This document shows positions 3,027 to 31,157 of a DNA stretch of 33,198 nucleotides, in pieces (the stretch's first letter is position 1; the number at the start of each line of letters is the position of its first letter). The notes beneath the pieces were generated by a model. The model saw only the letters and a program-made list of their open reading frames with translations, was not told the origin of the DNA and ran no database searches. The DNA lies in assembly GCA_019192485.1 (NCBI GenBank), contig JAHCMJ010000011.1, forward strand, positions 1 through 33,198, given 5' to 3'. The DNA is from Cyclobacteriaceae bacterium HetDA_MAG_MS6. Its GTDB lineage: Bacteria > Bacteroidota > Bacteroidia > Cytophagales > Cyclobacteriaceae. The position numbers and the translations under genes were made by a program.

Positions 3027-3051
3027 CCTGTAAAATTCTTTTGTCCTAATC

Positions 3052-3954: not shown

Positions 3955-4010
3955 AACAAGGGTCATTAGGACTTAGGCATTGGGTTCGAATAGTCTGAAA
4001 TAGAATAATT

Positions 4011-4367
4011 ATGAGAAAGTTTAAGGATTTGGAAATATGGCAATTGGGGAAAAAGCTTGCCATTGATATTTACAAATTGACCAACAGTATGCCTAAAGAG
4101 GAGGTCTATGGGATGACCTCTCAAATGCGTAGAGCAGCGGTATCTATTCCATCCAATATTTCGGAGGGCTGCAGTCGAAGGTCTAACAAGGAGTTTGCTC
4201 ACTATTTGGAAATATCATTAGGGTCATCTTTTGAGCTGGAGACGCAATTGATCATCACCGCTGAGATAGGTTTCCTCCATGACGGGGAGGTACAAGGATT
4301 AATAGGCGAAATCAACTTAATGCAAAAAAAGATTAATTCGTTCGTCACAACAGTAAGAAAACTTTGA
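4011..4367 (+). CDS. Four-helix bundle protein (S23 / 23S rRNA intervening-sequence protein family)
   Basis: FKDLEIWQLGKKLAIDIYKLT; YGMTSQMRRAAVSIPSNISEGCSRRSNKEFAHYLEISLGSSFELETQL is the family signature. Confidence 0.93.
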   Translation: MRKFKDLEIWQLGKKLAIDIYKLTNSMPKEEVYGMTSQMRRAAVSIPSNISEGCSRRSNKEFAHYLEISLGSSFELETQLIITAEIGFLHDGEVQGLIGEINLMQKKINSFVTTVRKL

Positions 4368-4368
4368 C

Positions 4369-5688: not shown

Positions 5689-5710
5689 TTTCCAAGTGAT
5701 TGCCTTGCTT

Positions 5711-5760
5711 TTCCTTCTCGGAGGGGCAGGGCCTGCCAGTCGGCAGACATGGGTGGGTTT
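5711..5760 (+). repeat. GC-rich palindromic repeat family A, long form, copy 3
   Basis: ttccttctcggaggggcagggcctgccagtcggcagacatgggtgggttt; near inverted match of 6265-6320. Confidence 0.75.
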
Positions 5761-5853
5761 AAAATTGTGATAGCTATCCTCCAAGAAGTGGGAATTTAGC
5801 TCAGTATATCCAGACTGACCTTTAAATGAAAATTTAAGAAACTTGCAACATCC

Positions 5854-5886
5854 AAATTCCCCTCCTGGGAGGGGTAGGGGTGGGTT
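5854..5886 (+). repeat. GC-rich palindromic repeat family A, short form, copy 4
   Basis: aaattcccctcctgggaggggtaggggtgggtt. Confidence 0.75.
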
Positions 5887-5898
5887 AATAGAAGAGAT

Positions 5899-8826: not shown

Positions 8827-11301
8827 ATGAAACAACTACAACTGGCAAAGCAATTTTTATTTTTCTTGAGTATACTGGTTGCTTGCAACCTGAAAGCGCA
8901 GCAATTAGATCCATCTAATTTACAGAATCTAAATGTTGACGAACTTACTGACGAACAGGTGCAGAAGTTTGTGGATCAGGTTGAATCTAATGGGTACACG
9001 GAGGATCAACTGTTACTGCTGGCAAAAACCCGGGGAGTTTCCGATATCCAAATCCAAAAATTAAGACAACGTATTGCTAAACTACAATCCGGGAGATCAC
9101 AGACTACCGATGTGCCTAGCACAGATCGTTTAAGGGAAGACCTCGGTGTTGAGAATAGAAGGCTAGCTAACGATCCTTTTGCTTTAATAATCCCAGAAGA
9201 AAAAGAGGAAGACTCCGAAGAGCTGGAGATTTTCGGACTATCTTTTTTCAAAAATGAGAACCTCACCTTTGAGCCTAGCCTAAATATCCCCACTCCGAAA
9301 AACTATCAGATCAGTGCGGGAGACGAGATCATCATAGATGTATGGGGAGCTTCGGAGCAGACCTATCAACTAACTGTTTCTCCCGAAGGGTCGATTCGCA
9401 TCACTGGCCTAGGGCCTATATACTTAAATGGACTCACTGTTGATCGAGCTACCAGAAGAATAAAGGCTCGCCTCAAATCGATTTACAGCACGCTAGGAGA
9501 GAACACTTTTGCCGATGTCAGCTTAGGCAAGACCCGCTCCATCAAGGTGCACGTAGTGGGCGAAGTAGAACGTCCTGGAACATATCTCGTCTCTTCATTC
9601 GCAACAGCTTTCAATGCGCTTTACCAGGCCGGCGGACCGACAAAGTCTGGATCTTTACGGGATATTCGAGTTTTTCGAGGAGGTCAAAAAATCGGTACCT
9701 TAGATGCTTATCGCTATCTATCAGATGGGTTAAGTGACGGGTTGATTTTGAAAGACCAAGATGTCATTTCTGTGCAACCTTATGGCGATCGAGTCAAGAT
9801 TTTAGGAGAGGTGAAACGCCCTTCTATTTATGAAATCAGTCCGGAGGAATCTGTGGAGCAGGCCATCAATTATGCAGGTGGATTTACGGAGAAGGCATTT
9901 ACAGAACGACTAAATATCAGGAGAAACGATGGTAACTTTAAGAAAATGGTAACTGTAGATAGAATTCAATTTGGGAATACTGCTATGCAAGGAGGCGATG
10001 AAGTGACAGTTTCTCTAATTTCCAATCAATTCAAAAATCGTGTCACCATTGAAGGAGCCGTGTACCAACCAGGCGAATATGCTTGGTCAGAAGGTTTGAC
10101 ATTAAGCCAGTTATTAGAACAAGCCCAAGGACTTCAACCTGACGCCTTTAAAGATAGAGCAATTATTGTTAGGCAGAATGATGATTTCACACTTTCGAAT
10201 ACTTCGATCTCATTAAACGAGGTAATGGATGGTGAGAAAGATTATCAGCTTCAAAACGAAGACTTGATCACCATTAAATCGATCTTTGATTTACGCGAAG
10301 CGTATTTTGTGAGAGTGGAAGGCGAAGTTCTCAAACCAGGAAGATATCCATACATCGCAGGCCAAACTGTGGAAGACTTGGTTTATCTGGCAGGAGGTTT
10401 TAAAGAATCAGCCGCAAAGTCATCAATAGAAGTCGCTAGAAGGGTTGGTGAGCAAAACAATCAAAACCAGCAAGCCTCTGCGGAGATTTTTCAATTCCCT
10501 ATTCAAGAGTCACTGGCAGTTGCTGCAGAAGATGCTCAGTTCGAATTGCAAGCTTTTGACTTAGTGGTCATTCGAAAAAGTCCTTTTTTCGAGGATCAAT
10601 CTATGATTGAAGTAGAAGGTGAAGTGCAATTTCCAGGTAAATATGCGCTACGATCTAAAGAAGAACGAATTTCAGACATTATTAAAAGATCCGGTGGACT
10701 GACATCTTTTGCTTACGCCAAAGGCGCAACCTTGATCCGACAAACAGAGTATTATGCCACAGACGAGGATGGAGGCGATACCAGGGCCCGTATTAGACGG
10801 CAAGAACTCGGAGAATTATTGGAGAGAGACACTTTACTTGATAAAAGTCAACAAGACTTTAAAAAGCAAGAGCCAATCGGAATCCAATTAGAGGAAGTGC
10901 TAAAGAATCCGAAGTCCAAGTATGATCTGCTTTTGAAAGAAGGAGATGTGATCAGCATACCTAAAGAGCTGCAGACGGTAAGGGTACGAGGTGAGGTACT
11001 TTACCCGAGCAATATAAGGTTTGATAATGGCATGTCTTTCAAATCCTACATTGCTCGAGCAGGAGGATTTAGCGATCAAGCTCGCCGAAAGAAATCGTAT
11101 GTTATTTATGCCAATGGGTCTGCCAAAAAAACCGGGTCATTTTTGTGGTGGAAAACTTATCCAAGAGTCGAACCGGGAGCGGAGGTGATAGTGCCTGAAA
11201 AGCCTCAGAAAAGAAAGTTAACGCCCCAAGAAGTTTTGGGAATCACAACCGGCGTTGCAACTTTAGGGCTGTTGGTTAATCAGATTGTCAATCAACTTTA
11301 G
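8827..11301 (+). CDS. Polysaccharide export outer-membrane protein, Wza-like, with multiple SLBB repeats
   Basis: YQISAGDEIIIDVWGASEQTYQLTVSPEGSIRITGLGPIYLNGLTVDRA (Poly_export domain), then repeated VEGEVxxPGxY...AGG SLBB units. Confidence 0.93.
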   Translation: MKQLQLAKQFLFFLSILVACNLKAQQLDPSNLQNLNVDELTDEQVQKFVDQVESNGYTEDQLLLLAKTRGVSDIQIQKLRQRIAKLQSGRSQTTDVPSTDRLREDLGVENRRLANDPFALIIPEEKEEDSEELEIFGLSFFKNENLTFEPSLNIPTPKNYQISAGDEIIIDVWGASEQTYQLTVSPEGSIRITGLGPIYLNGLTVDRATRRIKARLKSIYSTLGENTFADVSLGKTRSIKVHVVGEVERPGTYLVSSFATAFNALYQAGGPTKSGSLRDIRVFRGGQKIGTLDAYRYLSDGLSDGLILKDQDVISVQPYGDRVKILGEVKRPSIYEISPEESVEQAINYAGGFTEKAFTERLNIRRNDGNFKKMVTVDRIQFGNTAMQGGDEVTVSLISNQFKNRVTIEGAVYQPGEYAWSEGLTLSQLLEQAQGLQPDAFKDRAIIVRQNDDFTLSNTSISLNEVMDGEKDYQLQNEDLITIKSIFDLREAYFVRVEGEVLKPGRYPYIAGQTVEDLVYLAGGFKESAAKSSIEVARRVGEQNNQNQQASAEIFQFPIQESLAVAAEDAQFELQAFDLVVIRKSPFFEDQSMIEVEGEVQFPGKYALRSKEERISDIIKRSGGLTSFAYAKGATLIRQTEYYATDEDGGDTRARIRRQELGELLERDTLLDKSQQDFKKQEPIGIQLEEVLKNPKSKYDLLLKEGDVISIPKELQTVRVRGEVLYPSNIRFDNGMSFKSYIARAGGFSDQARRKKSYVIYANGSAKKTGSFLWWKTYPRVEPGAEVIVPEKPQKRKLTPQEVLGITTGVATLGLLVNQIVNQL

Positions 11302-11347
11302 AGATGTACGGCGTCATAGGTGCTAATGATTCTGGCAATTGAGTAAA

Positions 11348-12427
11348 ATGAGCGAAAACAAGGAGCAAAAAAGGAATGTAGTTAGCGAAGACGAAATTGA
11401 CTTGATAGAGCTAGCCAAAGTCATTTGGTCCAGGCGAATATTTATTGCTAAAGTCGCTGGATTATTTGTTATTGTAGGTTTAGTTGTGGCATTCACTTCT
11501 AAAGTAGAATACGAAGCTTCTTGTAAGCTGTTGCCAGAAAGCCAGGAAGGAGCAAAAGGAAGTTTAGGAGGGTTAAGTGGTCTAGCAGGTTTAGCGGGAA
11601 TTAACCTCGATGCTGGCTCATCTGGAGTTTTGTCACCGGAAATATATCCGGAACTGGTTAACAGTGCTCTTTTTTTAGACAAGCTGATGGATACTCCTAT
11701 ATATTTTGAAAAAAAGGATACTACAGTTACCAGTTTTAAGTATTTCAAGGAAATAGATCGCCCTTCCCTGTTTGGAGTAATAGCGGGATATACCATAGGA
11801 CTACCTGGAAAAATAAGAGGTCTTTTTAGTAGTTCAGATGAATTAGCATTGAATGACTATGATCTGGTTCGCTTTTCGAAAAAAGACTGGGGAATCATTG
11901 AAAATTACAAGGATCGTCTATCCGTTTCAGTAGACTCAAAGACTGGAATAATCAGCATTTCCGTTGAAATGCCTGATCCGGTTGCTGCCGCTAAAGTTAC
12001 AGATTTGCTGTTAAAAGAATTAACACAAAGTGTGATCGACTACAAGATTGAAAAGTCGCAGATAAATCTGAAATTTATTCAGGAACGTTTCGAAGAGGCA
12101 AAGTTGGTCTATGAATCGAAACAAAGCCAATTAGCAAGATTTATCGATCGCAATCGAAATATCTCGAATTCAATCATCCAGATAGAATATGAGCGACTTC
12201 AAAATGAGTTAAACATTGCTTTTGAGGTTTACAAAGGGTTGGCCACTCAACTAGAGCAAGCAAAAATTAAAGTGAAAGAAGAAACACCGGTTTTTACGGT
12301 TTTAGAACCAGTGAGAGTACCAGAAGATAAAGTAAGGCCAAGGAGAGCTATTATTTTGATTCTCTGGTTATTCTTTGGAATCTTAGTTGGGTCCCTTTTC
12401 TCAACCCTCAAGAATTTACCGTCGTAA
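11348..12427 (+). CDS. Wzz-type chain length determinant / polysaccharide co-polymerase
   Basis: EDEIDLIELAKVIWSRRIFIAKVAGLFVIVGLVVAF N-term TM; C-term PVFTVLEPVRVPEDKVRPRRAIILILWLFFGILVGSL. The ORF track start is 11339; the second Met at 11348 is the likely start. Confidence 0.87.
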   Translation: MSENKEQKRNVVSEDEIDLIELAKVIWSRRIFIAKVAGLFVIVGLVVAFTSKVEYEASCKLLPESQEGAKGSLGGLSGLAGLAGINLDAGSSGVLSPEIYPELVNSALFLDKLMDTPIYFEKKDTTVTSFKYFKEIDRPSLFGVIAGYTIGLPGKIRGLFSSSDELALNDYDLVRFSKKDWGIIENYKDRLSVSVDSKTGIISISVEMPDPVAAAKVTDLLLKELTQSVIDYKIEKSQINLKFIQERFEEAKLVYESKQSQLARFIDRNRNISNSIIQIEYERLQNELNIAFEVYKGLATQLEQAKIKVKEETPVFTVLEPVRVPEDKVRPRRAIILILWLFFGILVGSLFSTLKNLPS

Positions 12428-12741: not shown

Positions 12742-13330
12742 ATGAAAAGAGAAAGAAGATATTTCGACAAGGATTATGAAGAGATGGTGGTCATTCTATG
12801 CTTGACTGGAGAATCCCCAAAAGAAGTAGCCGATGAACTTAGGAATAAGACCTGAGTTGGTAAGACGTTGGAGAAGGGAATATGTAGTACTCCCTAAAAA
12901 TCGGGCCATTGGCTTAGTTAAAATTGAAACGGCTAAATTGACTAAGACCGATGAAGAGAACACGACGAAAATTTACGCCTGACTTCAAAGCCAGAGTGGC
13001 TGTTGAAGCGATCAAAGAACACCGAACACTTGCAGAACTTTCGAAGCATTTTGAAGTAAGTCCTGTGGTGATTTCCAGATGGAAAAAAGAGTTTCTGGAG
13101 AATATGTCTAAGGCCTTTGGAGAAAAATCTGATAACGAGGAAGGTACCGTCGATACAGAGAAGCTCTATGCCCAAATAGGTCAGCTGAAGGTGGAGAATG
13201 ATTTTCTAAAAAAAAGCTTGAAGAAAACCGGGCTATGAGTGAACATAACCCCAGATCAGGAGGAAATAGCGAGACTTAAGAAGGAATTAAAGGATGCTCA
13301 AATCGAACGAGAGATCATAAAAAGGTCATA
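12742..13330 (+). pseudogene. IS3-family orfA relic (element A), interrupted by the 12944-13250 segment
   Basis: Reading continues from ...aaattgact (12935-12943) directly into ccagatcaggaggaaata (13251 on) as KLT|PDQEEIARLKKELKDAQIEREIIK; an additional frameshift lies near 12840. Confidence 0.7.
12951..13238 (+). CDS. IS3-family orfA of a second, different element (element B), intact ORF without a cognate orfB
   Basis: MKRTRRKFTPDFKARVAVEAIKEHRTLAELSKHFEVSPVVISRWKKEFLENMSKAF...EKLYAQIGQLKVENDFLKKSLKKTGL. Confidence 0.85.
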   Translation: MKRTRRKFTPDFKARVAVEAIKEHRTLAELSKHFEVSPVVISRWKKEFLENMSKAFGEKSDNEEGTVDTEKLYAQIGQLKVENDFLKKSLKKTGL

Positions 13331-13359
13331 AGTATCTTCTCTAAGGGAGACAACAAATA

Positions 13360-14180
13360 CTCAAATTCATCAGGGATATAACCACATGTTTGGAGTTTAG
13401 AAGATGTGTAAAGTTTTCAAGATAAGTCGAAGTGGTTACTATGACTGGTTGGGTCGAAATCAGGACATTATACGAAGGCAGTAAATGCAGGTATGGGAGT
13501 CCTAAGATTACCGATGAACTTCGGGACTTTGGTTGGGTTGTTTCTCGCCCTCGAGTAGCTCGGATCATACGTTCAGAGCCTAGAAGTATAATCTGCAAAA
13601 AGTTCAGAGGGATGACCACAGATTCTCGCCATAACCTTCCAGTAGCTGGAAATCTCCTGAACAGAGACTTTGAAGCCATTGCCCCATCGCAAAAATGGGT
13701 TTCCGATATTACTTATATCTCAACAGCTCAGGGTTGAGTGTACCCGACCATGGTGGTGGACTTGTTTGACCAAAAGATCATCGGATGGTCAGTGAGTACT
13801 TCCATGACTACTCAGGCTGCCATATTGGCCACCTGGAGAATGGCCAGATTAAAACACAAGGATAGCACCTAATATGATATTCCATTCAGATCAAGGTATT
13901 CAATATGCCTCCTACGCATTTAGTGATAAGCTCAAGAGCTAAGGGGTCATACAGAGCATGAGCAGACAAGGAAATTGTTGGAACAATGCCGTAGCAGAGA
14001 GCTTCTTCAAAAACTAAAGTCTGAAATGGTCAAACATATGAAGTTTTACTCCACCCTTCATGTCAGAAAATAACTGTTCGAGTTCATAGAAATCTGGTAC
14101 AGTAGAAAAAGAAAACACGCATACTTGGAATGTAAAACTCCCAAGCAATGTGGAAATGTAAATTATTCAAAATGCGCTTG
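13360..14180 (+). pseudogene. IS3-family orfB (DDE transposase) relic with frameshifts and in-frame stops
   Basis: Interrupted rve-domain reading: KWVSDITYISTAQG* (stop near 13736), VYPTMVVDLFDQKIIGWSVSTSMTTQAAILATWRMARLK, IFHSDQGIQYASYAF, NNAVAESFFKN*, KRKHAYLECKTPKQ. Confidence 0.8.
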
Positions 14181-14644: not shown

Positions 14645-15646
14645 ATGAATAACTGGAAAAACCAAAGAGTGCTTGTTACTGGTGCATGTGGCACCGTAGG
14701 GCAGGAACTTATAAATCAATTAGTAATCTTAGAACCAAGTAAAATAGTTGGGATAGACAATAATGAAAGTGAATTATTTTTCCTTTCAGAGAGATACAAA
14801 GAAAATCCAGTTGTCGATATTTCTATTTGTGATATCAGGGAAAGGGATCACTTAATTAGATTATTTGAAGATATTGACATTGTACTACATACCGCTGCAT
14901 TAAAACATGTTATAATAAATGAGAAGAACCCATCAGAGGCGATTTTAACTAACATAATTGGTACTCAGAACGTCATTGAAGCTAGCAAAGTCAATAACGT
15001 TAAAAGAGTAATCTATACGTCTAGTGATAAAGCTGTCAATCCAACCAACGTCATGGGTACTTCTAAATTAATGGGAGAACGATTGATTTCTGCAGCTAAT
15101 TCCTTCAAGCAAGGTATGCCCATTTTTTCTTCGACTCGCTTTGGTAACGTGATGGGGTCTAATGGGAGTGTCATTCCGATTTTTAAGCAACAAATCGGCA
15201 ATGGTAAACCTATTACTATTACTGATGAAGGTATGACTCGATTTATAATGACTTTGAAAGAGGCGTCCAGTCTAGTAATGGAGAGCGTCTTCCTTGCAAA
15301 AGGTGGGGAGGTTTTTGTGACAAAAATGCCGACAATTAGAATTATTGATCTTGCAGATGCAATGATTTCCGAACTATCCCCGAATAGGCCTATTTATAAA
15401 CAAATCATCGGTGCTAAGCCGGGAGAGAAGCTCTACGAAGAATTGATGAATGAGGAAGAAGTAAGAAGAACCCTTGAGCTAGAAAAATATTTTGTTGTAA
15501 AACCTGCTTTTCAGATGAAATCTTCAATCTATAATTATGATGGTGTAATCTCAGAATCATTAGACAAAATATACCGATCTGATAAAGAGCTATTAATGAG
15601 TGTAGAGGAATTAAGTAACTATTTAAAATCTAATCAATTACTATGA
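14645..15646 (+). CDS. CapD/FlaA1-type nucleotide-sugar dehydratase/epimerase (extended SDR)
   Basis: VLVTGACGTVGQELI; AALKHVIINEKNPSEAILTNIIGTQNVIEAS; SSDKAVNPTNVMGTSKLMGER; STRFGNVMGSNGSVIPIFKQQI. Confidence 0.9.
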   Translation: MNNWKNQRVLVTGACGTVGQELINQLVILEPSKIVGIDNNESELFFLSERYKENPVVDISICDIRERDHLIRLFEDIDIVLHTAALKHVIINEKNPSEAILTNIIGTQNVIEASKVNNVKRVIYTSSDKAVNPTNVMGTSKLMGERLISAANSFKQGMPIFSSTRFGNVMGSNGSVIPIFKQQIGNGKPITITDEGMTRFIMTLKEASSLVMESVFLAKGGEVFVTKMPTIRIIDLADAMISELSPNRPIYKQIIGAKPGEKLYEELMNEEEVRRTLELEKYFVVKPAFQMKSSIYNYDGVISESLDKIYRSDKELLMSVEELSNYLKSNQLL

Positions 15647-16794
15647 AAATTTTGATACTAGGCGCTGATGGGTATTTAGGATGGCCTACAATGATGCATT
15701 TTGCAAAACAAGGACATGAGGTATATGGCATAGATGATTACAGTAGAAGGCTTATTGCAATGCAAACTTCTTCGGAAGCATTAATGCCAAATCCAAACCT
15801 GGAGGATAGGGCCAAACTATTTAATGAAGTTAGTGGGCTAAATCTTCAATGCCGTATTGGAGATCTCAAAGATTTTAGGTTGTTTGAGTCTGTCTTTAGT
15901 GAATTCAAGCCAGATGCAGTTATTCATTATGCCGAACAACCGTCAGCACCATATTCACTTAAGGGGTACGAAGAAGCACATTACACCTTAAAAAATAATT
16001 TAGAGGTTACACATAATCTACTGTGGGCTGTTATAAAATATGCGCCTGATTGTCACATAGTTAAGTTAGGCACTATGGGCGAGTATGGAACACCGAATAT
16101 CGATATTGAAGAAGGTTGGCTAGATATAGAGCATAAAGGAAGAAAGCACAAGTTCCTATACCCTCGACAGGCAGGTAGTCTATACCATACTACCAAAGTA
16201 CTTGACACGGACCTTATGTGGTTTTATGTCCGTACTTTTAATCTTAAAGTTACTGATCTGATGCAGGGGCCGGTTTATGGTTTATCTACTTCGGAAACAG
16301 ATTTAGATGAGCGATTACTGCCTAATTTTCATTACGATGACATTTTCGGGACCTTAGTCAATCGGTTTTTGGTCCAAGCGGTTGCGGGAATCCCGTTAAC
16401 TGTTTATGGCAAAGGTGGACAAATAAGGGGCTATCTCAATTTAAAGGATACCCTTCAATGTGTTGATTTGGCTACAAATAACCCAGCTAAAGAAGGAGAA
16501 CTAAAAATTTATAACCAGCTGACTGAAACTTTTTCTGTCAATCAACTTGCTGATAAAGTAAAGAAGGTGGGAGATCAAATGGGTTTAGGGGTCGAGATCA
16601 AACCAATTCCAAACCCAAGAAAGGAAGCAGAAGATCATTACTACAACCCTACTCATACGGGACTTATCGAACTTGGGCTACAGCCAAACTATTTAACGGA
16701 TGATGTACTTGTGTCAATGTTGGAACAGGTATTGAAGTATAAAAATGCTATAGTTGTCGATAAGATCATGCCTCGGGTAAAATGGAATAAATAA
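15643..16794 (+). CDS. UDP-sulfoquinovose synthase-like SDR (SQD1/SqdB/Agl3 family)
   Basis: ILGADGYLGWPTMMHFAKQGHEV; VIHYAEQPSAPYSL; KLGTMGEYGTPNIDIEEG; YPRQAGSLYHTTKVLDTD; LTVYGKGGQIRGYLNLKDTLQCVDLATNNPAKEGELKIYNQLTETFSVNQLA; PNPRKEAEDHYYNPTHTGLIELGLQPNYLTDDVL; IMPRVKWNK. Confidence 0.93.
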   Translation: MKILILGADGYLGWPTMMHFAKQGHEVYGIDDYSRRLIAMQTSSEALMPNPNLEDRAKLFNEVSGLNLQCRIGDLKDFRLFESVFSEFKPDAVIHYAEQPSAPYSLKGYEEAHYTLKNNLEVTHNLLWAVIKYAPDCHIVKLGTMGEYGTPNIDIEEGWLDIEHKGRKHKFLYPRQAGSLYHTTKVLDTDLMWFYVRTFNLKVTDLMQGPVYGLSTSETDLDERLLPNFHYDDIFGTLVNRFLVQAVAGIPLTVYGKGGQIRGYLNLKDTLQCVDLATNNPAKEGELKIYNQLTETFSVNQLADKVKKVGDQMGLGVEIKPIPNPRKEAEDHYYNPTHTGLIELGLQPNYLTDDVLVSMLEQVLKYKNAIVVDKIMPRVKWNK

Positions 16795-18093
16795 ATGCTG
16801 GGAAGGAGCATTGGGCTTACATTTCTTTTGAAAGCCTTAGGGGCAGCCCTGTCATTTGTTCTCCATGCCATCACGGCAAGACTTATGGAGCCGAACGGCT
16901 ATGGGATTTTCGCATTGATTATTTCTTGGTCAGTAAGTATTTCTCTACTGACGAAAGGGGGCTTTGAGATATCTAGTATAAAGTTTATTTCAATTTTTGA
17001 TCGAGAAAAGGAATCTTCAAAGAAAAGTGGATTCCTTATACTGTCCTACGTTTTTTGTTTTAGTATTCTTTTGATCTTGACGGTCCTCTTGATTATTCTA
17101 AGGTCATTAGATTTAGAAGACTTTCATGGTGGCTTTTATCAATACGCTCCCTTTGTTCTAATACTAGTTGGTCTAATAAGCTTGGAGGAAATTAATTCAG
17201 GTATACTTAGAGGTATAGGTAAACTTTACTATGGAATTATTCCCAATGTTATTCTTTATCCAACCTTTTTTCTTGGGATTGTTCTTTTCAGTAAGCTCAT
17301 TCTTGGCTATTCAGTTGATGTTTATCAAGTTACTTGTTTTCTGCTTTTATCGCATTTTTTTGTGGTCTTAGTTCAATTATGGCCTATGCGATTGGTGATT
17401 ACTTCAAATCCTAAGTTTGAGGTAGAAAATTGGTTTACAACAACATTTCCTCTCTTTATAAGTAATGGTGCTCAAGTCTTGCTTAGAGAGATTGACATTA
17501 TTATTGTTGGTATTGTTCTTGGTCCTTATGAGGCAGGGATCTATGCAGCAGCAGTTAAACTAATCAAGCTTTTACGTTTTGGTTTAAGTGCATCTAATTT
17601 TGTGGTGGCACCAATGTATTCCCAACTGGCCAGCCATAATAACTTTCTCAAGATACAAGAAACGGCTTCAAAAGCGGTCTCATTTTCATTTCTTATTTCA
17701 TTACCTCTAGTTCTAGGCTTATTACTTTTTGGAGAAGTACTTTTATCTTTTTTCGGTAATGAATTTCTGGTGGCAATACCTATTCTTTATATCCTGATTA
17801 TCGGAGAGATATTCAATATACTGTCCGGCCCTAATGGTGTCTTATTGGAAATGACCGGATATCAAAAGAAAATGATGAATATTGAGTTTTTCTCTCTTTT
17901 TCTTAACGCAACTTTGTTGTACTTTATTACACAAGCCGGTAATATTATTGGGGCTGCTATAGCCACTTCTATCTCTATTCTTGTTAGAAATTTAATTGTT
18001 AATTATTCAGTAATAAAACACATGAAAGTGAATCCAACACTTTTCTCCAAAAGTGTACTGTCTATTATCAAGAGGAACGTGAAAAAGGAATGA
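16795..18093 (+). CDS. Oligosaccharide flippase / polysaccharide transporter (Wzx-like)
   Basis: Polytopic membrane protein with N-term AARLMEPNGYG-like ITARLMEPNGYGIFALIISW and REIDIIIVGIVLGPYEAGIYAAAVKLIKL. Confidence 0.88.
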   Translation: MLGRSIGLTFLLKALGAALSFVLHAITARLMEPNGYGIFALIISWSVSISLLTKGGFEISSIKFISIFDREKESSKKSGFLILSYVFCFSILLILTVLLIILRSLDLEDFHGGFYQYAPFVLILVGLISLEEINSGILRGIGKLYYGIIPNVILYPTFFLGIVLFSKLILGYSVDVYQVTCFLLLSHFFVVLVQLWPMRLVITSNPKFEVENWFTTTFPLFISNGAQVLLREIDIIIVGIVLGPYEAGIYAAAVKLIKLLRFGLSASNFVVAPMYSQLASHNNFLKIQETASKAVSFSFLISLPLVLGLLLFGEVLLSFFGNEFLVAIPILYILIIGEIFNILSGPNGVLLEMTGYQKKMMNIEFFSLFLNATLLYFITQAGNIIGAAIATSISILVRNLIVNYSVIKHMKVNPTLFSKSVLSIIKRNVKKE

Positions 18094-18961: not shown

Positions 18962-19813
18962 ATGAAATTTTCTCTTGTCGTATGTACTATAGGTAGAAAG
19001 GAGCCTCTTGTCAAACTATTTGAATCGCTAAAAAATCAGACCCTTAAAGATTTTGAAGTCATATTGGTGGATCAAAATGAGCCTGATTTTTTGGACGAAA
19101 TAGTTCAGGAATTTCAAAATAGTTTTGAGTTGAAACATCTTTTTTCTGAAAAAGGATTATCAAGAGCTAGGAACAAAGGACTCGAAAATGCAGTTGGTGA
19201 GATTTTTGCCTTCCCAGATGATGATTGCTGGTACGAACGTGACTTACTCGAACGAATATGGATGTTTTTCGAACGAGAAGGTGATGTTGATGGCGTTACA
19301 TCGCACACAATAGGTGAGGATGGAAAGCAAAGTGTCCAAAGGTTTGATCTTACAGATTCTAAACTTACCATTTATAATGTATGGGAAAAGGCAAATTCTA
19401 CTACTATTTTCGTTAGATCGGGAGGCTTTGATTCCTTTATGTTCGATGAGAAACTGGGAGTAGGTTCTGGCACTAAGTGGGGAGCAGGTGAGGATATTGA
19501 TTTTTTGATTAGGTTAATACGTAATGGAGCGAATCTGAGATTTGATATCAAATTCTATGTTTATCATCCACACGTGGAAGCATACGTCGATCCTGATAAG
19601 TTGCTTTCAAGGAATAAAGCTTACTCCCTTGGTGCCGGTTATGTTATTGGGAAAAATGGCTATCCTCTGTTTTATCCTTTTTATTTGTCTTTTAGATCAC
19701 TAGTTGGCTCTGTGCTTAGTTATTTAATGAGAGATCGATTAAAGTGTAGTATCCGATATATTAGAAGTAAGAGTATACTAGAGGGGTGGAAAGATGCGAG
19801 AAAATTGAAATGA
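18962..19813 (+). CDS. Glycosyltransferase family 2
   Basis: FSLVVCTIGRKEPLVKLFESLKNQTLKDFEVILVDQNEPDFL; GLSRARNKGLENAVGEIFAFPDDDCWY. Confidence 0.9.
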   Translation: MKFSLVVCTIGRKEPLVKLFESLKNQTLKDFEVILVDQNEPDFLDEIVQEFQNSFELKHLFSEKGLSRARNKGLENAVGEIFAFPDDDCWYERDLLERIWMFFEREGDVDGVTSHTIGEDGKQSVQRFDLTDSKLTIYNVWEKANSTTIFVRSGGFDSFMFDEKLGVGSGTKWGAGEDIDFLIRLIRNGANLRFDIKFYVYHPHVEAYVDPDKLLSRNKAYSLGAGYVIGKNGYPLFYPFYLSFRSLVGSVLSYLMRDRLKCSIRYIRSKSILEGWKDARKLK

Positions 19814-21357
19814 AACCTATGCGCGTGAGACTTAAAGAACCTTTCTTTTTGATCTATTTGATAGTTGCATTGCTCTTAATCTTACAGAGTTCTTTAAGTT
19901 CTAGTAATGGGATTTCGCCGGATTCAATGAACTATATCGAAATAGCCAGGAATCACTTTAAAGATCTGGGTTTGGTTAAATCATCCATCGGGTTTAATGA
20001 AGCAAGCTTCCCGAGTGATTATAGATTGGATCATAAGCAGCCAATGTTTTCACAACCGCCCCTTTACCCTTTGATGATTTCATTTTTCATGAAAATAGGG
20101 CTTTCAGGTACTAGTTCTTCCTTGATTATTTCCTGGATTGCTTTGTTATTTACTTTAAGCTTTTGCTGGCTAATTGCTCGGAAATTTTACTCATTAGAAG
20201 CTGCCTTTCTTGTTACTGCTTTATTGCTTAATTACTACCCATTAAGGCTAATTTCGGGCTATGCATGGACAGAAGGGCTTGCCCTTTGCTTGATTTTGGG
20301 AAGTATTTGGTTCTTAGTATCAGAGAAGATTTTCTGTAAATACTTTTTTTCTGGTATGCTCGGTGGGCTTGCATTTAGTGCGCGGTACTCTATGGTCTTT
20401 TTGGTTCTAGTCTTTTTGATTTTCATTTTCACAAAAAAATATCCATTAAAACAGAAGTTAAAGTCCACAATCGTTTGGGGAATCGGTTTTTCTATTCCTT
20501 TTGTACTTGTCTTAGGTAGAAACTTCTACCATAACGCTGCATTGCTTCCCGTTGCTAACCCTTCAGAAGTATCGCTTTTTGAAAACTCAATTACGTATTT
20601 CAAAACACTTTTTTCAAGTTTAATTAGTGGTGATTTTAGTCTTATTCAATTAGCTTTTTTCTTATTATTCATAATCACAGTTGTTTTAGCGGATTTTTTA
20701 AGCAAAGTATCCATTAAAGACAAAATTTTTAAGATATTGATTTCAGGTGATAGAGTTATAATTCCATTAATGATTGTTGTTTACACAATTTTCCTCTTGT
20801 ATCAACGAACGGTTAGGCATTTTGATCCTTTGGATGAACGGTTCATAGTCCTTTCAGGGCTTATGGGATTAATGCTAATTTCAGCTTACCTCACTCTTCA
20901 ACTCAAATCAAAACTTGGTTTTAGGATAGTCTTATTCGGACTTGTTACTTTTTCAATTTCTCAAAATGTTTTAGCAATATCTAGAGCTAGCGAGGACTCA
21001 GAACAATCGGCACGCATAATGTGGATTGATAAGAATACGACTTCCTCTGATCTGATTATTGGAGATAACACAGCAGATATTCCTTACCTACTGAATAGGG
21101 ACTTTTCAGTTTCGTTTTCACCGTATCCTTATACCAATCATGTCTCCAGAAGTGATCTGAACTCAATTGTTTGTAATAACTCAGATCTTTATGAAAATTT
21201 TTACCTGGTAGTTAGAAAAAGGTATTCTTCACAAGTTGATTGGGAAAGGTACTTCGGCTCCTACATTTCTGAAATCATAAGGACATCTGATCATCAGGAT
21301 ATAAGCTTGCTTGCAGAGCTGGAAGACGCGTACATTTTTAAATTGCAATGCTTATGA
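19810..21357 (+). CDS. GT-C fold polytopic glycosyltransferase (GT39/ArnT-like), candidate polyprenyl-P-sugar-dependent transferase
   Basis: ISPDSMNYIEIARN periplasmic-loop acidic motif; QPMFSQPPLYPLMISFFMKI; about 10 predicted TM segments. ORF track start is 19786; MKPMRVRL at 19810 is an alternative. Confidence 0.7.
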   Translation: MKPMRVRLKEPFFLIYLIVALLLILQSSLSSSNGISPDSMNYIEIARNHFKDLGLVKSSIGFNEASFPSDYRLDHKQPMFSQPPLYPLMISFFMKIGLSGTSSSLIISWIALLFTLSFCWLIARKFYSLEAAFLVTALLLNYYPLRLISGYAWTEGLALCLILGSIWFLVSEKIFCKYFFSGMLGGLAFSARYSMVFLVLVFLIFIFTKKYPLKQKLKSTIVWGIGFSIPFVLVLGRNFYHNAALLPVANPSEVSLFENSITYFKTLFSSLISGDFSLIQLAFFLLFIITVVLADFLSKVSIKDKIFKILISGDRVIIPLMIVVYTIFLLYQRTVRHFDPLDERFIVLSGLMGLMLISAYLTLQLKSKLGFRIVLFGLVTFSISQNVLAISRASEDSEQSARIMWIDKNTTSSDLIIGDNTADIPYLLNRDFSVSFSPYPYTNHVSRSDLNSIVCNNSDLYENFYLVVRKRYSSQVDWERYFGSYISEIIRTSDHQDISLLAELEDAYIFKLQCL

Positions 21358-22229
21358 AGGTGGATTGGATACAAGTGATTAAGTTGCTGAGACCTAATCA
21401 TTATGTCAAGAATCTTTTTGTCTTTACACCTATTTTTTTTGGTGGAGAAATCACCAATGTAGAGCTATTGATGAATTCGCTGACAGCTTTTGTCTCTTTT
21501 TCATTGATCGCAAGCTCTATTTATATTTTAAATGATTATAAAGACGTTGAAAGTGATAAGAAGCATCCAGAGAAGGCGAATAGACCACTTGCCTCAAGGG
21601 CAGTTAATCATCGTTTTGCTCTTGTGTTAATGGTCTTGCTGGTTCTAGCAAGTTTCAGTATTGCTTTTTCTATTTCAATAAACTCCTTAGTAATTGTTGG
21701 ATTCTATTTTGTCTTAAATATTGCTTATAGCCTGGGCCTAAAACGTATTGCCATTGTCGATGTTACGATCATTGCATTAGGTTTTATTATGAGGCTATTG
21801 ATAGGAGCCGTAGCTTCCACTATTTCACTGTCATTATGGATAATAATAATGACTTTCTTGCTGGCACTATTTCTTGGATTTGCTAAAAGGAGAGATGATG
21901 TCTTGATTTATTTGAAAACTGGGAAAAAGATGAGAGCCTCCATTGATGGGTATAATTTAGAATTTGTGAGTTCAGTTTTAAATGTACTCTCTGGAGTAAT
22001 CATTGTCTCATATATTCTTTATACGACAAACGCGGAGTTACCATCTTCAGAATATTTGTATGCCACTTCTTTCTTTGTGATCCTTGGAATTCTACGATAT
22101 CTTCAAATTAGCCTGGTTGAGGAGAAAAGTGGTTCTCCTACTTCAGTGCTTCTAAAAGATAATTTTATTAGAATCTGTTTACTTGGCTGGGTCATTCTCT
22201 TTTACTTTATTATTTATATTCAGTTGTGA
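21348..22229 (+). CDS. UbiA-family decaprenyl-phosphate phosphoribosyltransferase-like (DPPR synthase)
   Basis: LLRPNHYVKNLFVFTPIFFGG; SIYILNDYKDVESDKKHPEKANRPLASRAV; FLGFAKRRDDVLI. Confidence 0.9.
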   Translation: MLMKVDWIQVIKLLRPNHYVKNLFVFTPIFFGGEITNVELLMNSLTAFVSFSLIASSIYILNDYKDVESDKKHPEKANRPLASRAVNHRFALVLMVLLVLASFSIAFSISINSLVIVGFYFVLNIAYSLGLKRIAIVDVTIIALGFIMRLLIGAVASTISLSLWIIIMTFLLALFLGFAKRRDDVLIYLKTGKKMRASIDGYNLEFVSSVLNVLSGVIIVSYILYTTNAELPSSEYLYATSFFVILGILRYLQISLVEEKSGSPTSVLLKDNFIRICLLGWVILFYFIIYIQL

Positions 22230-23905
22230 TAATATACCTGGCATTTGCCCTTTTATCTACTCTATTCAATCTTTCATTGCAGTATCTATGGGTAAGTATT
22301 TACAACGGTAGATATGAGCTAGAGTCGGCCATTCTTATCGGTACTTTAGGAGGATTCGTTTTAAAGTACCTGTTAGATAAGTTTTTTGTTTTTAAACGGT
22401 CTGAGAAAAAAGTTGATATTAAAGAGCTTTTTTTCTACGGATTCACTAGTTTCTTTACCACTATCATTTTTTGGGGGGTTGAATGGTTTTTCCACTTTGC
22501 TTATGAAAGCGAGTATTCAATGTATTTGGGGGGGTTCATTGGCCTGTCCATTGGATATATTTTAAAATTCTATTTGGATAAGAATTTTGTGTTTAATGTT
22601 TCTAGTCGCAATCTGAATAGTTGGGGGAATTATCCCAAAATTGATAACAGTAGCATTGAGCCGGTTTCTAAGAGTTCTTTAAAGGATATCATTGGAGATC
22701 ATGTGAAATACATTCCCTACGGGAATGGTAGAAGTTATGGTGATTCTGCCCTATCAAAGAATATCATTAAATCTTCTGAGCTGAATAAGTTCATCGGGTT
22801 TGATCCAGATTCAGGATTACTCGAAGCACAAGCGGGGGTTTTATTATCGGATATCATAAAAATTTTTGTTTCAAAGGGTTGGTTTTTGAAAATTTCGCCA
22901 GGTACCAGTTACATCACTTTAGGGGGTGCTATAGCAGCGGATGTTCACGGGAAAAATCATCATATTGATGGATGCTTTAGTAGTTGTTTGGAATCATTTA
23001 CGTTGATGCTTGCCAATGGCGATGTGAAGGAATGCAGCAGGCTAGAGAATAAGGAGCTATTTTATGCTACTTGTGGAGGTATGGGGCTGACCGGAGTAAT
23101 TATTAATGTTAAGATTTATTTAAAAAAGATAAATTCTAAGTGGATCACGCAAAACTTAGTTTCGTGTAAAAACCTTAAAGAGCTTTTTGCTGCTTTTAAA
23201 ACACATCAAAATGTGACTTACTCAGTCGCTTGGATTGATTGTTTGGCGAAAGGAAGCTCTATTGGAAGAAGCATATTGATGCTGGGTGAATTTGGAGAAG
23301 ATGGAGATTTGAATTACAAGCCAAAAAGGAGATTAAATGTCCCATTCTTCCTACCAAGCTTTTGTTTAAATTATATTACCATCAAAGCATTTAATACCCT
23401 ATACTATTTTATCAAAAGAGGGAAAAAATCTAGCTTCAAAGTAAGCATCGACGATTTTTTTTATCCTCTTGATGCAATTAGAAACTGGAATCGCTTATAT
23501 GGTAAAAACGGATTCCTTCAATATCAATTTATTCTCCCAGAAAAAGTCAGCTATGAGGGTCTCCTTAAAATCTTAACGATCATTGCAAAGAAGAAGAAAG
23601 GTTCTTTTTTGGCAGTACTGAAACTTTATGGAGAAGAAAATGAAAATTATCTCTCATTTCCCATTAAAGGATACAGTCTTGCTTTAGACTTTAAAATTGA
23701 AAGAGGTATTTTCGAGTTGCTTGACCACTTAGATCAAATAGTTGTTGAACTTGGGGGGAGAATCTATCTTGCTAAAGATGCGAGAATGTCTCGTGAAACT
23801 TTCGAGCGGACATATCACAAACTCTCAAATTTTCGGAGAATAAGGCAAGAGATAGACGTATCAAATAAGTTTGAATCATTGCAATCAAAAAGACTAGGAC
23901 TATGA
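22226..23905 (+). CDS. GtrA-like membrane domain fused to DprE1-like FAD-dependent decaprenylphosphoryl-ribose 2-oxidase (GTG start)
   Basis: N-term about 125 aa with FVLKYLLDKFFVF and YILKFYLDKNFVF GtrA-type repeats; then YIPYGNGRSYGDSAL, FLKISPGTSYITLGGAIAADVHGKNHHIDGCFSSCLESFTLMLANGD, LFYATCGGMGLTGVII, LQYQFILPEKVSYEG, SFPIKGYSLALDFKI, RIYLAKDARMS. Confidence 0.92.
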   Translation: MIIYLAFALLSTLFNLSLQYLWVSIYNGRYELESAILIGTLGGFVLKYLLDKFFVFKRSEKKVDIKELFFYGFTSFFTTIIFWGVEWFFHFAYESEYSMYLGGFIGLSIGYILKFYLDKNFVFNVSSRNLNSWGNYPKIDNSSIEPVSKSSLKDIIGDHVKYIPYGNGRSYGDSALSKNIIKSSELNKFIGFDPDSGLLEAQAGVLLSDIIKIFVSKGWFLKISPGTSYITLGGAIAADVHGKNHHIDGCFSSCLESFTLMLANGDVKECSRLENKELFYATCGGMGLTGVIINVKIYLKKINSKWITQNLVSCKNLKELFAAFKTHQNVTYSVAWIDCLAKGSSIGRSILMLGEFGEDGDLNYKPKRRLNVPFFLPSFCLNYITIKAFNTLYYFIKRGKKSSFKVSIDDFFYPLDAIRNWNRLYGKNGFLQYQFILPEKVSYEGLLKILTIIAKKKKGSFLAVLKLYGEENENYLSFPIKGYSLALDFKIERGIFELLDHLDQIVVELGGRIYLAKDARMSRETFERTYHKLSNFRRIRQEIDVSNKFESLQSKRLGL

Positions 23906-24633
23906 GCTATATATTAATACTTGGTGCAAAAAGTGATGTAGCAAAAGCTTTAGCTAAGGAGTATGCTGAATTGGGATATAACCTTTATTTAATGTCCAGA
24001 AAGGTATCGGATTTAGAATTGTTTGCTAATGATTTGAAAATCAGATCAGGGAAAGAAGTCTTACTAAAAGAATTGGACATTTTAAAGTGGGAAAACCATG
24101 CAGAGATTTACAATAATCTAGAGCCTAAGCCTATTGGTTTAATTTCGTTGATCGGATTGCTGGGTGATCAAAAAATAGCAGAAAATGACTTTAATCACGC
24201 GCTAAGAATTATGAATACAAACTTCGTAGCCATAACGAGTTTTTTAGAAATCGCTGCGAATGATATGAAGGAAAAGAAAAATGGGTTTATTGTTGGAGTT
24301 AGCTCAGTAGCAGGTGATCGGGGCAGAGCGAGTAATTATTATTATGGAGCCGCAAAAAGTGGTTTTTCTACATTCCTTTCTGGGTTGCGAAATAGGCTGA
24401 ATCCATTTGGAGTAAAAGTACTTACCGTTAAGCCTGGATTTATGAAAACCAAAATGACAGAGGATTTGGAACTCCCTTCATTTCTAACAATTTCAGCAGA
24501 AAAAGCAGCTCACCTAATAGTGAAGGCTCAAAAGAAAGGTCGAGATGTTGTTTACATTTTTTGGGTATGGCGTTGGATTATGATGTTGATTGGAAACATA
24601 CCCGAATTTCTCTTTAAAAAAATGAAGCTATGA
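23902..24633 (+). CDS. DprE2-like SDR (decaprenylphospho-2-keto-arabinofuranose reductase)
   Basis: YILILGAKSDVAKALAKEYAELGYNLYLMSR; GVSSVAGDRGRASNYYYGAAKSGFSTFLSGLRNRL; VLTVKPGFMKTKMTEDL. Confidence 0.9.
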   Translation: MSYILILGAKSDVAKALAKEYAELGYNLYLMSRKVSDLELFANDLKIRSGKEVLLKELDILKWENHAEIYNNLEPKPIGLISLIGLLGDQKIAENDFNHALRIMNTNFVAITSFLEIAANDMKEKKNGFIVGVSSVAGDRGRASNYYYGAAKSGFSTFLSGLRNRLNPFGVKVLTVKPGFMKTKMTEDLELPSFLTISAEKAAHLIVKAQKKGRDVVYIFWVWRWIMMLIGNIPEFLFKKMKL

Positions 24634-25241
24634 CTTATAAGAGTCAAGGAGACAAAGCAATTGCTTTTTTTGATTTTGATGGAACAATTACTATTAAGGA
24701 CAGTCTATTTGATTTTTTAGTTTATTCTTTTGGTACTTATAAAGTGGTGCTAAGTCTCATCGTATTGAGTCCTATGTTAGGCTTGTATTTACTAAAACTT
24801 GTTTCTAATGAGTATGCGAAAAAAAAATTATTGTCCTACCACTTAAAAGGACGGAAAGTGAGCTCAGTAAGCAGACTTGGAGAAAAATATTCAAAAGACA
24901 GAATAGATACTATTGTTAAGAAAAGTGCTTTGAATCGACTGAATGAACATAAGATTGAGGGGCATAAAGTAGTTGTAGTAAGTGCTTCACTTGAGCTATG
25001 GCTCAAGCCTTGGTGTGATGAACTAAACCTTGAGTTGATTGGAACAAAACTTGAAATTAGAAACGAAAGAATAACCGGACAATTTGATGGGCCTAATTGC
25101 TATGGGGCAGAAAAGAAAAGAAGAATTTTGGAAAAGTATGATCTGGATAATTACCCTGATATATATGCTTATGGGGACAGTAAAGGGGACAGAGAAATGA
25201 GCTCTTTAGCAAACCACTCATTTTACAAATATTTTACTTGA
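24630..25241 (+). CDS. HAD-IB family phosphatase
   Basis: AIAFFDFDGTITIKDSLFDFL (DxDGT); VVVVSASLELWLKPWCDEL; YAYGDSKGDREMSSLANHSFYKYF. Confidence 0.9.
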   Translation: MTYKSQGDKAIAFFDFDGTITIKDSLFDFLVYSFGTYKVVLSLIVLSPMLGLYLLKLVSNEYAKKKLLSYHLKGRKVSSVSRLGEKYSKDRIDTIVKKSALNRLNEHKIEGHKVVVVSASLELWLKPWCDELNLELIGTKLEIRNERITGQFDGPNCYGAEKKRRILEKYDLDNYPDIYAYGDSKGDREMSSLANHSFYKYFT

Positions 25242-25251
25242 TTTATTCTCG

Positions 25252-26556
25252 ATGAGTTTCTCTTTGACAATAAAGATTGATCAACTACTAGAGATCGCTG
25301 TAGTCCTGTTATTCTCGATTTTGTTATTAGTTGATCCTGAATTGTTATCTATTTTGTCGGTCGTATGGATCTTATGGCATGTTGTTAGATACATCATCAG
25401 ACCTAATGAGTTATTTTCAATAGTAAGAATATTAATTGTTTTATTGTCATTATACTCTACCATGGCATTCCAAGTTTCCTCACTGTTGGAATTTCAATAC
25501 TACGGCGTGAGCAGAGAAACTGTTGAACAGTCTTCCTACTTCAGTATACTAAGCATAATGGGATCAGTATTAATTATTGTAATCTTCATTTACAAACGAG
25601 GCCAGGAAAAAATTTCATCTATCAGAGAAGCCATTATACAAAAAATTAACTCAGTATCAGTAGCCAGATCTTATTTGATAATATTCTTAATGATATTGCT
25701 TTCAGTTTTGATGTGGCTAAATATTTGGCGGTCCATTGGAAATTTTCTTCCTGTTGGAAACAGGGATTTTGCAGGTGAATTATTCTTTATCAGTAATCAC
25801 TATATGCAGATACTAATTCTGAGTCTTTCATTCTATTCTATTTTTAGAATTTTAAGTAAACGAAGCAGAGTTGAGACATTATTATACATCGTTCTTTTAA
25901 TATTTTTGTGGTATCCATTCGCAGTAGTGGGAGCAAGGAAGGAGATCTTTCTGCTTGTTTTGTGTATTTTCTTTTTTTTAGAAACAACATTAAAGCAGAA
26001 AACACTATTGGGGGCTGCAGTTGTTGTTTATATGTTCGGAATCCCACTCTTAAGAGAAGGTGTTTCAAGTACCGTTTTTAACATTCTTTCTATCCAAGAA
26101 TTTATCCTTCCACAATACACACACCTATTATTATCCGAAAGCTCTGATTTAACAATTTCCGAAATTCTAGATCAGTCCTCTTATCAGTCAGGCCTTTGGG
26201 TCTTTATTCCTGGGACTTTTCGCTTAACAGAATTCGTTCCTTTGGGGAAAAGCTTTTACAACCTGGATTTGACGAATGTTGCTTTAGGTGCACACCCGAT
26301 AGGTGAAGCATGGATTAATTATGGAGACTGGGGATACTTTTTTTTTGCATTTTTATTCTTTTTTCTAATTAGGTTCCTTATCACAGGTGGTGCAGGAATC
26401 ACAGAGTTGGTAATAGTTAGTTGTTCTTATCTAGCGGTTTTTGGAAGAAGCGATTTATGGATCACCTTATTTTTCATCATTTATACTTCTTTGTTTTTTT
26501 TCCTTTTAGCTACCCCGATCAGAATTAGATACAGAAAAACCAATTTCGTTTTCTAG
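25252..26556 (+). CDS. Polytopic membrane protein, candidate O-antigen polymerase (Wzy-like)
   Basis: About 10 or more hydrophobic segments; GARKEIFLLVLCIFFFLET; position between GT genes; ALGAHPIGEAWINYGDWGYFFFAFLF. Confidence 0.65.
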   Translation: MSFSLTIKIDQLLEIAVVLLFSILLLVDPELLSILSVVWILWHVVRYIIRPNELFSIVRILIVLLSLYSTMAFQVSSLLEFQYYGVSRETVEQSSYFSILSIMGSVLIIVIFIYKRGQEKISSIREAIIQKINSVSVARSYLIIFLMILLSVLMWLNIWRSIGNFLPVGNRDFAGELFFISNHYMQILILSLSFYSIFRILSKRSRVETLLYIVLLIFLWYPFAVVGARKEIFLLVLCIFFFLETTLKQKTLLGAAVVVYMFGIPLLREGVSSTVFNILSIQEFILPQYTHLLLSESSDLTISEILDQSSYQSGLWVFIPGTFRLTEFVPLGKSFYNLDLTNVALGAHPIGEAWINYGDWGYFFFAFLFFFLIRFLITGGAGITELVIVSCSYLAVFGRSDLWITLFFIIYTSLFFFLLATPIRIRYRKTNFVF

Positions 26557-29783: not shown

Positions 29784-31157
29784 ATGTCGCGAAGGAGATT
29801 ATCACCATATTTCCCCCTCTTCTTTATTTTCTTCGATTTGTTGTCGTTGAATCTTGGTTTTGGTTTTGCTAATTTCATAAGGTTTGGGACTTTCCTATAT
29901 TATCACGACAACTATAATACATTACAGATTCTTCTGAATGTCCTGTGGCTACTCGTGTTCTTTTCATCCAAGCTGGATGAGATTAATAGGGAGCAGAGAC
30001 TTTTAGACCACTTAAATAAAATACTTACAGCTCTTGTTATCAATTTAGCGATCGTTTTTGCACTATGGTTTGCTACCAAGCCTTTTTACTATTCAAGAGA
30101 GCATCTTTTCTACACCTATCTTTTTTTCTCGGTCTTACTGCTTTCATGGAGGACTTTTTGGCATTTCCTCATCCGATATTATAGAGCCAAAGGTTTTAAC
30201 CTTAGGAATGTTGTTATTGTAGGTCATGGTGACTTAGCAAATGAATTGCTTTACTTCATCCGCGTAAATCGAGAACTAGGTTATCGGTATCTTGGATTTT
30301 TTGACAGCGACAGGCAAGGTGCGCTGGGTAAAATATCTGAGGTAGATACTTATGTGGACCAAAATCCTGTTGATGTTATTTTTTGTTGTTTACCACAGCT
30401 GTCAGACGATGAGATTAAAGAAGTCATAGATTACGCTGATAGTAACTTAATCAAGGTAAAAATTATATCTCAGTTTAGCAGATTGGCCAATAGAAATCTG
30501 GCTATTCAAAATTATGGCCCTATACCAGTGCTGAATGTCAATGCCATTCCACTGGATAGCAAGATCAATCAGTCTATCAAAAGAGGCTTTGATATCATTT
30601 TTTCAGGTCTGGTGCTATTTTTTGTGCTTTCTTGGCTTATTCCAGTTATTGGTTTGCTTATTAAGTTAGAATCTAAAGGTCCTATTTTTTTTAAACAATT
30701 TCGTCATGGAAAAGACAATCGAAAATTTCTTTGTTGGAAATTTAGAACCATGGTAGTAAATCAGGATGCCGACTTAAAACAAGCTACAAAGCATGACTCT
30801 AGAATTACGAAGATCGGCGCGATTCTCAGAAAGACAAGTATTGATGAATTGCCACAATTTATTAACGTGTTTCTGGGTGATATGTCCGTTGTCGGTCCTA
30901 GACCTCATCCGATCAAGTTAAATGAAAAATTTCAGCCTTCTATTGAAAAATTTTGGCAGAGACATGCAGTTAAGCCAGGGATCACCGGCTTGGCTCAAGC
31001 AAAAGGTTTTAGAGGCGAAACTTCGGAATTCAGTGCCATGAGCGGGCGAGTTCGGCTAGATAGGTTTTATGTGAGAAATTGGTCACTCCTCCTAGATTTC
31101 AAAATAATTTTACTTACCGTTATCTCCATAGTTCGAGGTAGCGAGAATGCGTATTGA
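29784..31157 (+). CDS. Polyprenyl-phosphate hexose-1-phosphate transferase (WcaJ/WbaP-type initiating transferase)
   Basis: VVIVGHGDLANELLYFI; KRGFDIIFSGLVLFFVLSWLIPVIGLLIKLESKGPIFFKQFRHGKDNRKFLCWKFRTMV; RKTSIDELPQFINVFLGDMSVVGPRPHPIKLNEKF; KPGITGLAQAKGFRGE. Confidence 0.95.
   Translation: MSRRRLSPYFPLFFIFFDLLSLNLGFGFANFIRFGTFLYYHDNYNTLQILLNVLWLLVFFSSKLDEINREQRLLDHLNKILTALVINLAIVFALWFATKPFYYSREHLFYTYLFFSVLLLSWRTFWHFLIRYYRAKGFNLRNVVIVGHGDLANELLYFIRVNRELGYRYLGFFDSDRQGALGKISEVDTYVDQNPVDVIFCCLPQLSDDEIKEVIDYADSNLIKVKIISQFSRLANRNLAIQNYGPIPVLNVNAIPLDSKINQSIKRGFDIIFSGLVLFFVLSWLIPVIGLLIKLESKGPIFFKQFRHGKDNRKFLCWKFRTMVVNQDADLKQATKHDSRITKIGAILRKTSIDELPQFINVFLGDMSVVGPRPHPIKLNEKFQPSIEKFWQRHAVKPGITGLAQAKGFRGETSEFSAMSGRVRLDRFYVRNWSLLLDFKIILLTVISIVRGSENAY

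Follow-up and report, generated by a model that had tools for sequence, protein, structure and literature searches.

The window analyzed here is the complete 33,198-base contig JAHCMJ010000011.1 of the 4.69-Mb, 460-contig draft genome of Cyclobacteriaceae bacterium HetDA_MAG_MS6, and it carries five consecutive plus-strand genes that, with a probability of about 0.82, make a lipid-linked D-arabinofuranose (Araf) donor for use on a surface glycan. These genes encode a predicted GT-C type polyprenyl-phosphosugar glycosyltransferase (positions 19786 to 21357), a predicted UbiA-family polyprenyl-phosphate 5-phosphoribosyltransferase (21348 to 22229), a fusion of a GtrA domain with a DprE1-type oxidase (22226 to 23905), a DprE2-like reductase of the short-chain dehydrogenase/reductase (SDR) family (23902 to 24633), and an HAD-IB phosphatase, the candidate 5'-phosphoribose phosphatase (24630 to 25241). 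An earlier note, made from the sequence alone, had proposed five consecutive genes of these types; all five frames are present and the domain assignments agree with it, as do the coordinates of four genes. The start of the GT-C gene differs: its longest frame opens with a GTG at 19786, and the ATG at 19810 given in the note is an internal alternative. The junctions, previously described as overlapping or nearly so, overlap in all four cases, by 10 nucleotides between the GT-C and UbiA genes (4 if the internal UbiA ATG at 21354 is used) and by 4 nucleotides in each of the other three.

In mycobacteria, the decaprenyl-phosphoryl arabinose (DPA) pathway comprises the UbiA protein Rv3806c, Rv3807c, DprE1/DprE2, the GtrA protein Rv3789, and the GT-C enzymes AftA and Emb, and feeds the arabinan of the cell wall. 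For the window, the sequence shows the families to which the proteins belong, their catalytic residues, and their co-occurrence; the reactions themselves, and with them the sugar, its linkage, and its acceptor, are inferred from gene content and neighbourhood. The UbiA protein would join phosphoribosyl pyrophosphate (PRPP) to polyprenyl phosphate, and the HAD phosphatase would take off the 5'-phosphate. The DprE1 domain would then oxidize C2, using flavin adenine dinucleotide (FAD), and the DprE2-like SDR would reduce the product with inverted stereochemistry, yielding polyprenyl-phospho-D-Araf. The GtrA domain would either carry this donor across the membrane or anchor the oxidase there, and the GT-C enzyme would move Araf in the periplasm onto the glycan of the surrounding Wzx/Wzy-type cluster. 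Such DPA-type chemistry (PRPP plus polyprenyl phosphate, dephosphorylation, 2-epimerization, and GT-C transfer), put forward in the earlier note, is the best reading of the five genes: profile matches and solved structures agree with it, as do the conserved residues of the active sites, the trees, and the order of genes in some 100 other loci.

The UbiA protein matches the Pfam UbiA family (101.6 bits), and UbiA models outside the group of decaprenyl-phosphoryl-5-phosphoribose (DPPR) synthases and PRK08238 give it 57.8 bits at most. Its only matches in the PDB are two entries for decaprenyl-phosphate phosphoribosyltransferase (8j8j, E=6.8e-39). In all 78 aligned UbiA sequences, 8j8j among them, the motif residues of the first loop (the N-D-x-x-D-x-x-x-D signature, H, K, and R) are invariant, as is the K-R pair of the second motif. 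In the tree, the protein groups with DprE1-linked UbiAs and apart from the five further UbiA paralogues that its own genome encodes, with only 70% support for the separating branch in the Shimodaira-Hasegawa-like approximate likelihood ratio test (SH-aLRT). A quinone or haem prenyltransferase identity was considered and ruled out by the profiles and the tree.

Residues 126 to 559 of the fusion protein form a DprE1-type FAD oxidase (Pfam FAD_binding_4, 61.9 bits) whose first match among PDB sequences is the DprE1 entry 4aut (E=1.6e-72). The modelled domain finds Mycobacterium tuberculosis DprE1 as its top Foldseek match (E=6.3e-40), and these profile, sequence, and fold matches ruled out a generic sugar-lactone oxidase. 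The first histidine of the HGKNHH motif and the lysine of the A/T/S-K-D motif are invariant in 101 of 101 homologues. The earlier note had staked its proposal on the UbiA protein and the oxidoreductase belonging to the relevant functional subfamilies, and the DPPR-only PDB matches, the UbiA tree, and the first rank of DprE1 by both sequence and fold place them there. The SDR (Pfam adh_short, 101.5 bits) has its Y-x-x-x-K motif within YYYGAAKSG; it is called DprE2-like mainly because of its gene position and its 36 to 53% identity to the SDRs encoded beside DprE1 in other genomes. The phosphatase matches Pfam HAD (108.6 bits) and TIGR01490 (HAD-IB; 126.1 bits, above the cut-off of 98.3), and contains a DFDGT motif.

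Homologues of DprE1 (scoring >150 bits, own genome included) were found in 82 of the 399 sampled genomes of the phylum and in 55 of the 199 sampled genomes of the family. A scan of the collection returned at least 80 named DprE1 loci from many phyla, with neighbours counted within the stretch around each. A UbiA gene is present in 68 and a DprE2 gene in 74 of the 80 loci listed, so the association of these genes is not a matter of chance. The order UbiA-(GtrA)-DprE1-DprE2-(HAD) is kept across phyla, and carriers of the operon include the environmental bacteria Chitinophaga agrisoli and Sandaracinomonas limnophila. Among the 68 UbiA-bearing loci, a separate HAD homologue is encoded in 29, and 18 have the HAD motif on the UbiA frame. 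The nearest loci, all with the order UbiA-GtrA-DprE1-DprE2-HAD, come from Sulfurovum, Aliarcobacter, Sulfurospirillum, Desulfamplus, and a member of the Methylococcaceae. The DprE1 tree puts the window in a 13-row set with Campylobacterota, Desulfobacterota, and others, apart from the bulk of its own family, of which one other genome (G572) shares the set; the UbiA tree recovers the same neighbours with 92% SH-aLRT support. The deep branches of both trees are weakly supported. Since the window copy clusters with same-order loci of Campylobacterota and Desulfobacterota and not with most of its own family, these trees suggest that the operon was acquired by horizontal transfer.

Several results weigh against this assignment of the pathway. 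The models for DPPR synthase (NF008977), DprE1 (NF053785), and DprE2 (NF053786), which the earlier note had named as a check, are all matched, albeit at 216.9, 367.2, and 164.1 bits, below the respective equivalog cut-offs of 234, 500, and 250, so these three proteins are relatives of the mycobacterial ones rather than strict equivalogs; on the SDR, the generic model NF005489 outscores the DprE2 model with 319.9 bits. In 21 of the 68 UbiA-bearing loci, an HAD phosphatase was found in neither form within the stretch examined, so the phosphatase is not a universal partner. Of the five assignments, that of the GT-C protein is the weakest: the predicted transferase, with 9 hydrophobic segments, is recognized by one moderate Pfam match (PF13231 PMT_2, 38.4 bits, cut-off 26.1) and by a motif, D46-S-M-N-Y50, after the first hydrophobic segment. 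The spacing of D46 and Y50 resembles that of D31 and Y35 in Citrobacter open reading frame ORF12, and the protein of locus L146 has the counterpart D-S-V-N-Y. Structure prediction, another check proposed in the note, gave the DprE1 domain the fold of its M. tuberculosis namesake and failed for the GT-C protein, whose AlphaFold2 model has a mean predicted local distance difference test (pLDDT) of 39, with only 4 distant sequences alignable. Close relatives of the GT-C protein were sought in 399 genomes of the phylum and 398 of the family, with weak matches only. On the supporting side, in the Sulfurospirillum locus L069, a GT-C gene lies within the same operon (PMT_2, 58.4 bits), and in other loci polytopic proteins of similar size adjoin the operon. 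Finally, the acceptor is guessed from the gene neighbourhood.

The part of the set that stands apart from its relatives is the GtrA-DprE1 protein, a single uninterrupted frame of 559 amino acids with no stop across the domain junction. Its residues 1 to 125 form a four-helix GtrA domain, a candidate lipid-sugar flippase or anchor, recognized by Pfam GtrA (27.4 bits, cut-off 26.1) and by NF037976 (121.9 bits, cut-off 50); in the AlphaFold2 model (mean pLDDT, 74), the four helices of this part are predicted with low confidence, mostly below 55. The linker FVFNVSSRNLNSWG joins the two domains where relatives have a stop and a start. Proteins similar to GtrA adjoin DprE1 in 35 of 100 loci (the 80 named and 20 further ones of 17 to 20 kb), and no fused frame was found among either the 80 listed or the 20 further loci. 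Those encoded beside DprE1 (e.g., in L064, L067, and L087) have a K-[FY]-x-L-D-K-x-x-[VI]-F-like pattern at the ends of helices 2 and 4 and T-T-x-x-F-W-x-x-E in helix 3; these repeated motifs may mark a DprE1-linked GtrA subfamily. The loop joining helices 2 and 3 has five Lys/Arg residues and the loop joining helices 3 and 4 has none; these charge counts favour both ends of the GtrA domain lying on the cytoplasmic side, from which DprE1 is predicted to be cytoplasmic, an inference given the low confidence of the modelled helices. The only MOP/MATE-like gene of the cluster codes for the Wzx-like protein discussed below, and the GtrA domain is the likelier candidate for the donor flippase. Locus L117 from Candidatus Cloacimonetes shows another kind of fusion within this pathway, a frame of 850 residues with tandem matches to DprE1 and DprE2.

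The fusion is known from one draft contig, and the proposal that it is a real single chain, holding the polyprenyl-phospho-ribose oxidase at the cytoplasmic membrane face beside a flippase domain, stands at roughly even odds. Alternatively, an error of assembly or sequencing might have joined two adjacent genes that are separate in the organism. The fragmentation of the draft and the lack of any fusion among the listed loci speak for such an error, and so does locus L064, in which GtrA and DprE1 share one frame with a lone TGA between them, so that a single base can decide. In the window, however, the fused frame runs from one domain into the other without a stop and offers DprE1 no ATG start around the junction. 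There, FVFNVSSRNLNSWG takes the place of both the stop and the start of the relatives, a change hard to produce with one miscalled base; a separate DprE1 could still start at an in-frame GTG, at V122. On balance, an artefact of this kind appears unlikely.

The sugar and the acceptor also have rival explanations. The donor could be polyprenyl-phospho-ribofuranose or another epimer, if the oxidase and reductase are inactive or have a different stereochemistry, and the GT-C enzyme would then transfer that pentofuranose. There is a precedent in Citrobacter, where UbiA, HAD, and GT-C proteins together with a flippase yield ribofuranose in O1, and a different epimerase leads to xylofuranose in O2 (PMC11127046). 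However, that epimerase is a single SDR enzyme and not an FAD oxidase plus an SDR, and in the window the DprE1 and DprE2 genes are both present, intact, and overlapping, with the catalytic residues of DprE1 conserved. The chance of a donor other than Araf is slim, and arabinose is more likely than ribose because both epimerase genes are there. Somewhat less improbable, if still a minor prospect, is that the same lipid donor serves a pilin, another surface protein, or a glycolipid instead of the neighbouring polysaccharide, as in Pseudomonas aeruginosa, where the pathway serves O-glycosylation of the type IV pilin (as cited in PMC11127046; PMC10115798). Against this stands the position of the five genes among those for Wza-, Wzz-, and Wzx-like proteins, a WcaJ-type initiating transferase, and several GT2 and GT4 glycosyltransferases. 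The set abuts its neighbours on both sides, overlapping the GT2 gene upstream and leaving a gap of 10 nucleotides downstream, which suggests co-expression with the polysaccharide genes and makes the exported glycan the preferred acceptor of Araf.

The cluster has a G+C content of about 35%, compared to about 43% at the window's left end. It includes, on the plus strand, the Wza-like SLBB export protein and the Wzz-like chain-length protein (8827 to 12427; PF02563, PF10531, and PF02706), the Wzx-like flippase (16795 to 18093; PF01943, 55.7 bits, and PF01554, 44.9 bits), and the WcaJ-type initiating polyprenyl-phosphate glycosylphosphotransferase (29784 to 31157; TIGR03023, 441.8 bits, cut-off 410.75). 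The gene directly after the phosphatase (25252 to 26556, also on the plus strand) encodes a very hydrophobic polytopic membrane protein, a candidate Wzy polymerase by position only, for which Pfam and NCBIfam profile searches returned no match. Scans for promoters and terminators scored no better than shuffled sequences. A protein similar to UDP-sulfoquinovose synthase (15643 to 16794; NF041015, 451 bits, cut-off 575) is encoded in the same cluster, which raises the possibility of a sulfonated sugar in the glycan as well. Directly upstream of the export genes are the sulfate activation genes cysC, cysD, cysN, and cysQ (2400 to 7251), with a 23S rRNA intervening-sequence-type protein (4011 to 4367) encoded between cysD and cysN. 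The frame at 5899 to 7251, of 450 residues, combines DUF559 (residues 12 to 116) with a complete CysQ nucleotidase (about 200 to 446) and represents a second unusual fusion in the contig. At 12951 to 13737, where the Wzz-like gene gives way to the glycan genes of low G+C content, are two short frames whose helix-turn-helix domains are of the transposase type (PF01527 and PF13276), probably insertion sequence remnants.

These genes extend the known systems for lipid-linked pentofuranoses by a Bacteroidota example, probably a transferred one, and the DprE1 counts in the family and the phylum indicate that surface D-Araf may be common in Bacteroidota. Two points about the mycobacterial proteins are in dispute: the side of the membrane on which DprE1 acts (PMC11127046) and the role of the GtrA protein Rv3789, either flippase or anchor (PMC7389260). 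The fusion provides a handle on both. If it is real, it would be a naturally occurring link, evidence that DprE1 and its GtrA partner (in mycobacteria, Rv3789) act in concert, and epimerization would precede flipping and take place in the cytoplasm, at least in the lineage of the fusion.

The window and the mycobacterial pathway have in common a UbiA DPPR synthase, DprE1, DprE2, a GtrA protein, and a GT-C enzyme (predicted in the window), with conserved catalytic residues in UbiA and DprE1. They differ in that the window has an HAD-IB phosphatase in place of Rv3807c, its GtrA is fused to DprE1, its genes lie within a polysaccharide cluster, and the DprE1 cysteine attacked by benzothiazinones is replaced by alanine, as in 95 of the 101 sampled homologues. 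Pathways of this kind are already known in Gram-negative bacteria: Kelly et al. 2024 (PMC11127046) established by experiment, with ribofuranose in Citrobacter, the steps of UbiA, HAD, and GT-C, reported DprE1/E2 homologues for Gram-negative glycans that contain Araf, and cited the earlier Pseudomonas pilin pathway (Harvey et al. 2011). With such an arrangement published and common in the family, the operon is less surprising than the earlier note had supposed. Like the three-component systems of Citrobacter youngae O1/O2 (GT136; PMC11127046), it combines a polyprenyl-phosphoryl-phosphoribose (PPPR) synthase of the UbiA family and an HAD phosphatase with a GT-C enzyme and a flippase, both putative in the window, and adjoining glycan genes; in contrast to them, its HAD is encoded by a separate gene and its candidate flippase is a GtrA domain, not a MATE protein. 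The P. aeruginosa D-Araf pathway, as described via PMC11127046, likewise includes a PPPR synthase and a proposed Gram-negative polyprenyl-phospho-Araf, the acceptor there being pilin and in the window probably an exported polysaccharide. The closest likeness is to loci L064, L067, L068, L069, and L087 (Campylobacterota, Desulfamplus, and Methylococcaceae), the strongest tree neighbours, which share the gene order and have 58 to 61% identical DprE1 proteins; L064, L068, and L069 differ from the window in the large membrane protein encoded between DprE2 and HAD, which Pfam identifies as GT-C in L069. In all five of these loci, GtrA and DprE1 are separate genes. No description of a GtrA-DprE1 fusion was found in literature searches on DprE1 with GtrA or with Gram-negative arabinose, which is not proof of absence, and it is this fusion that stands out here, departing from the relatives and descriptions found.

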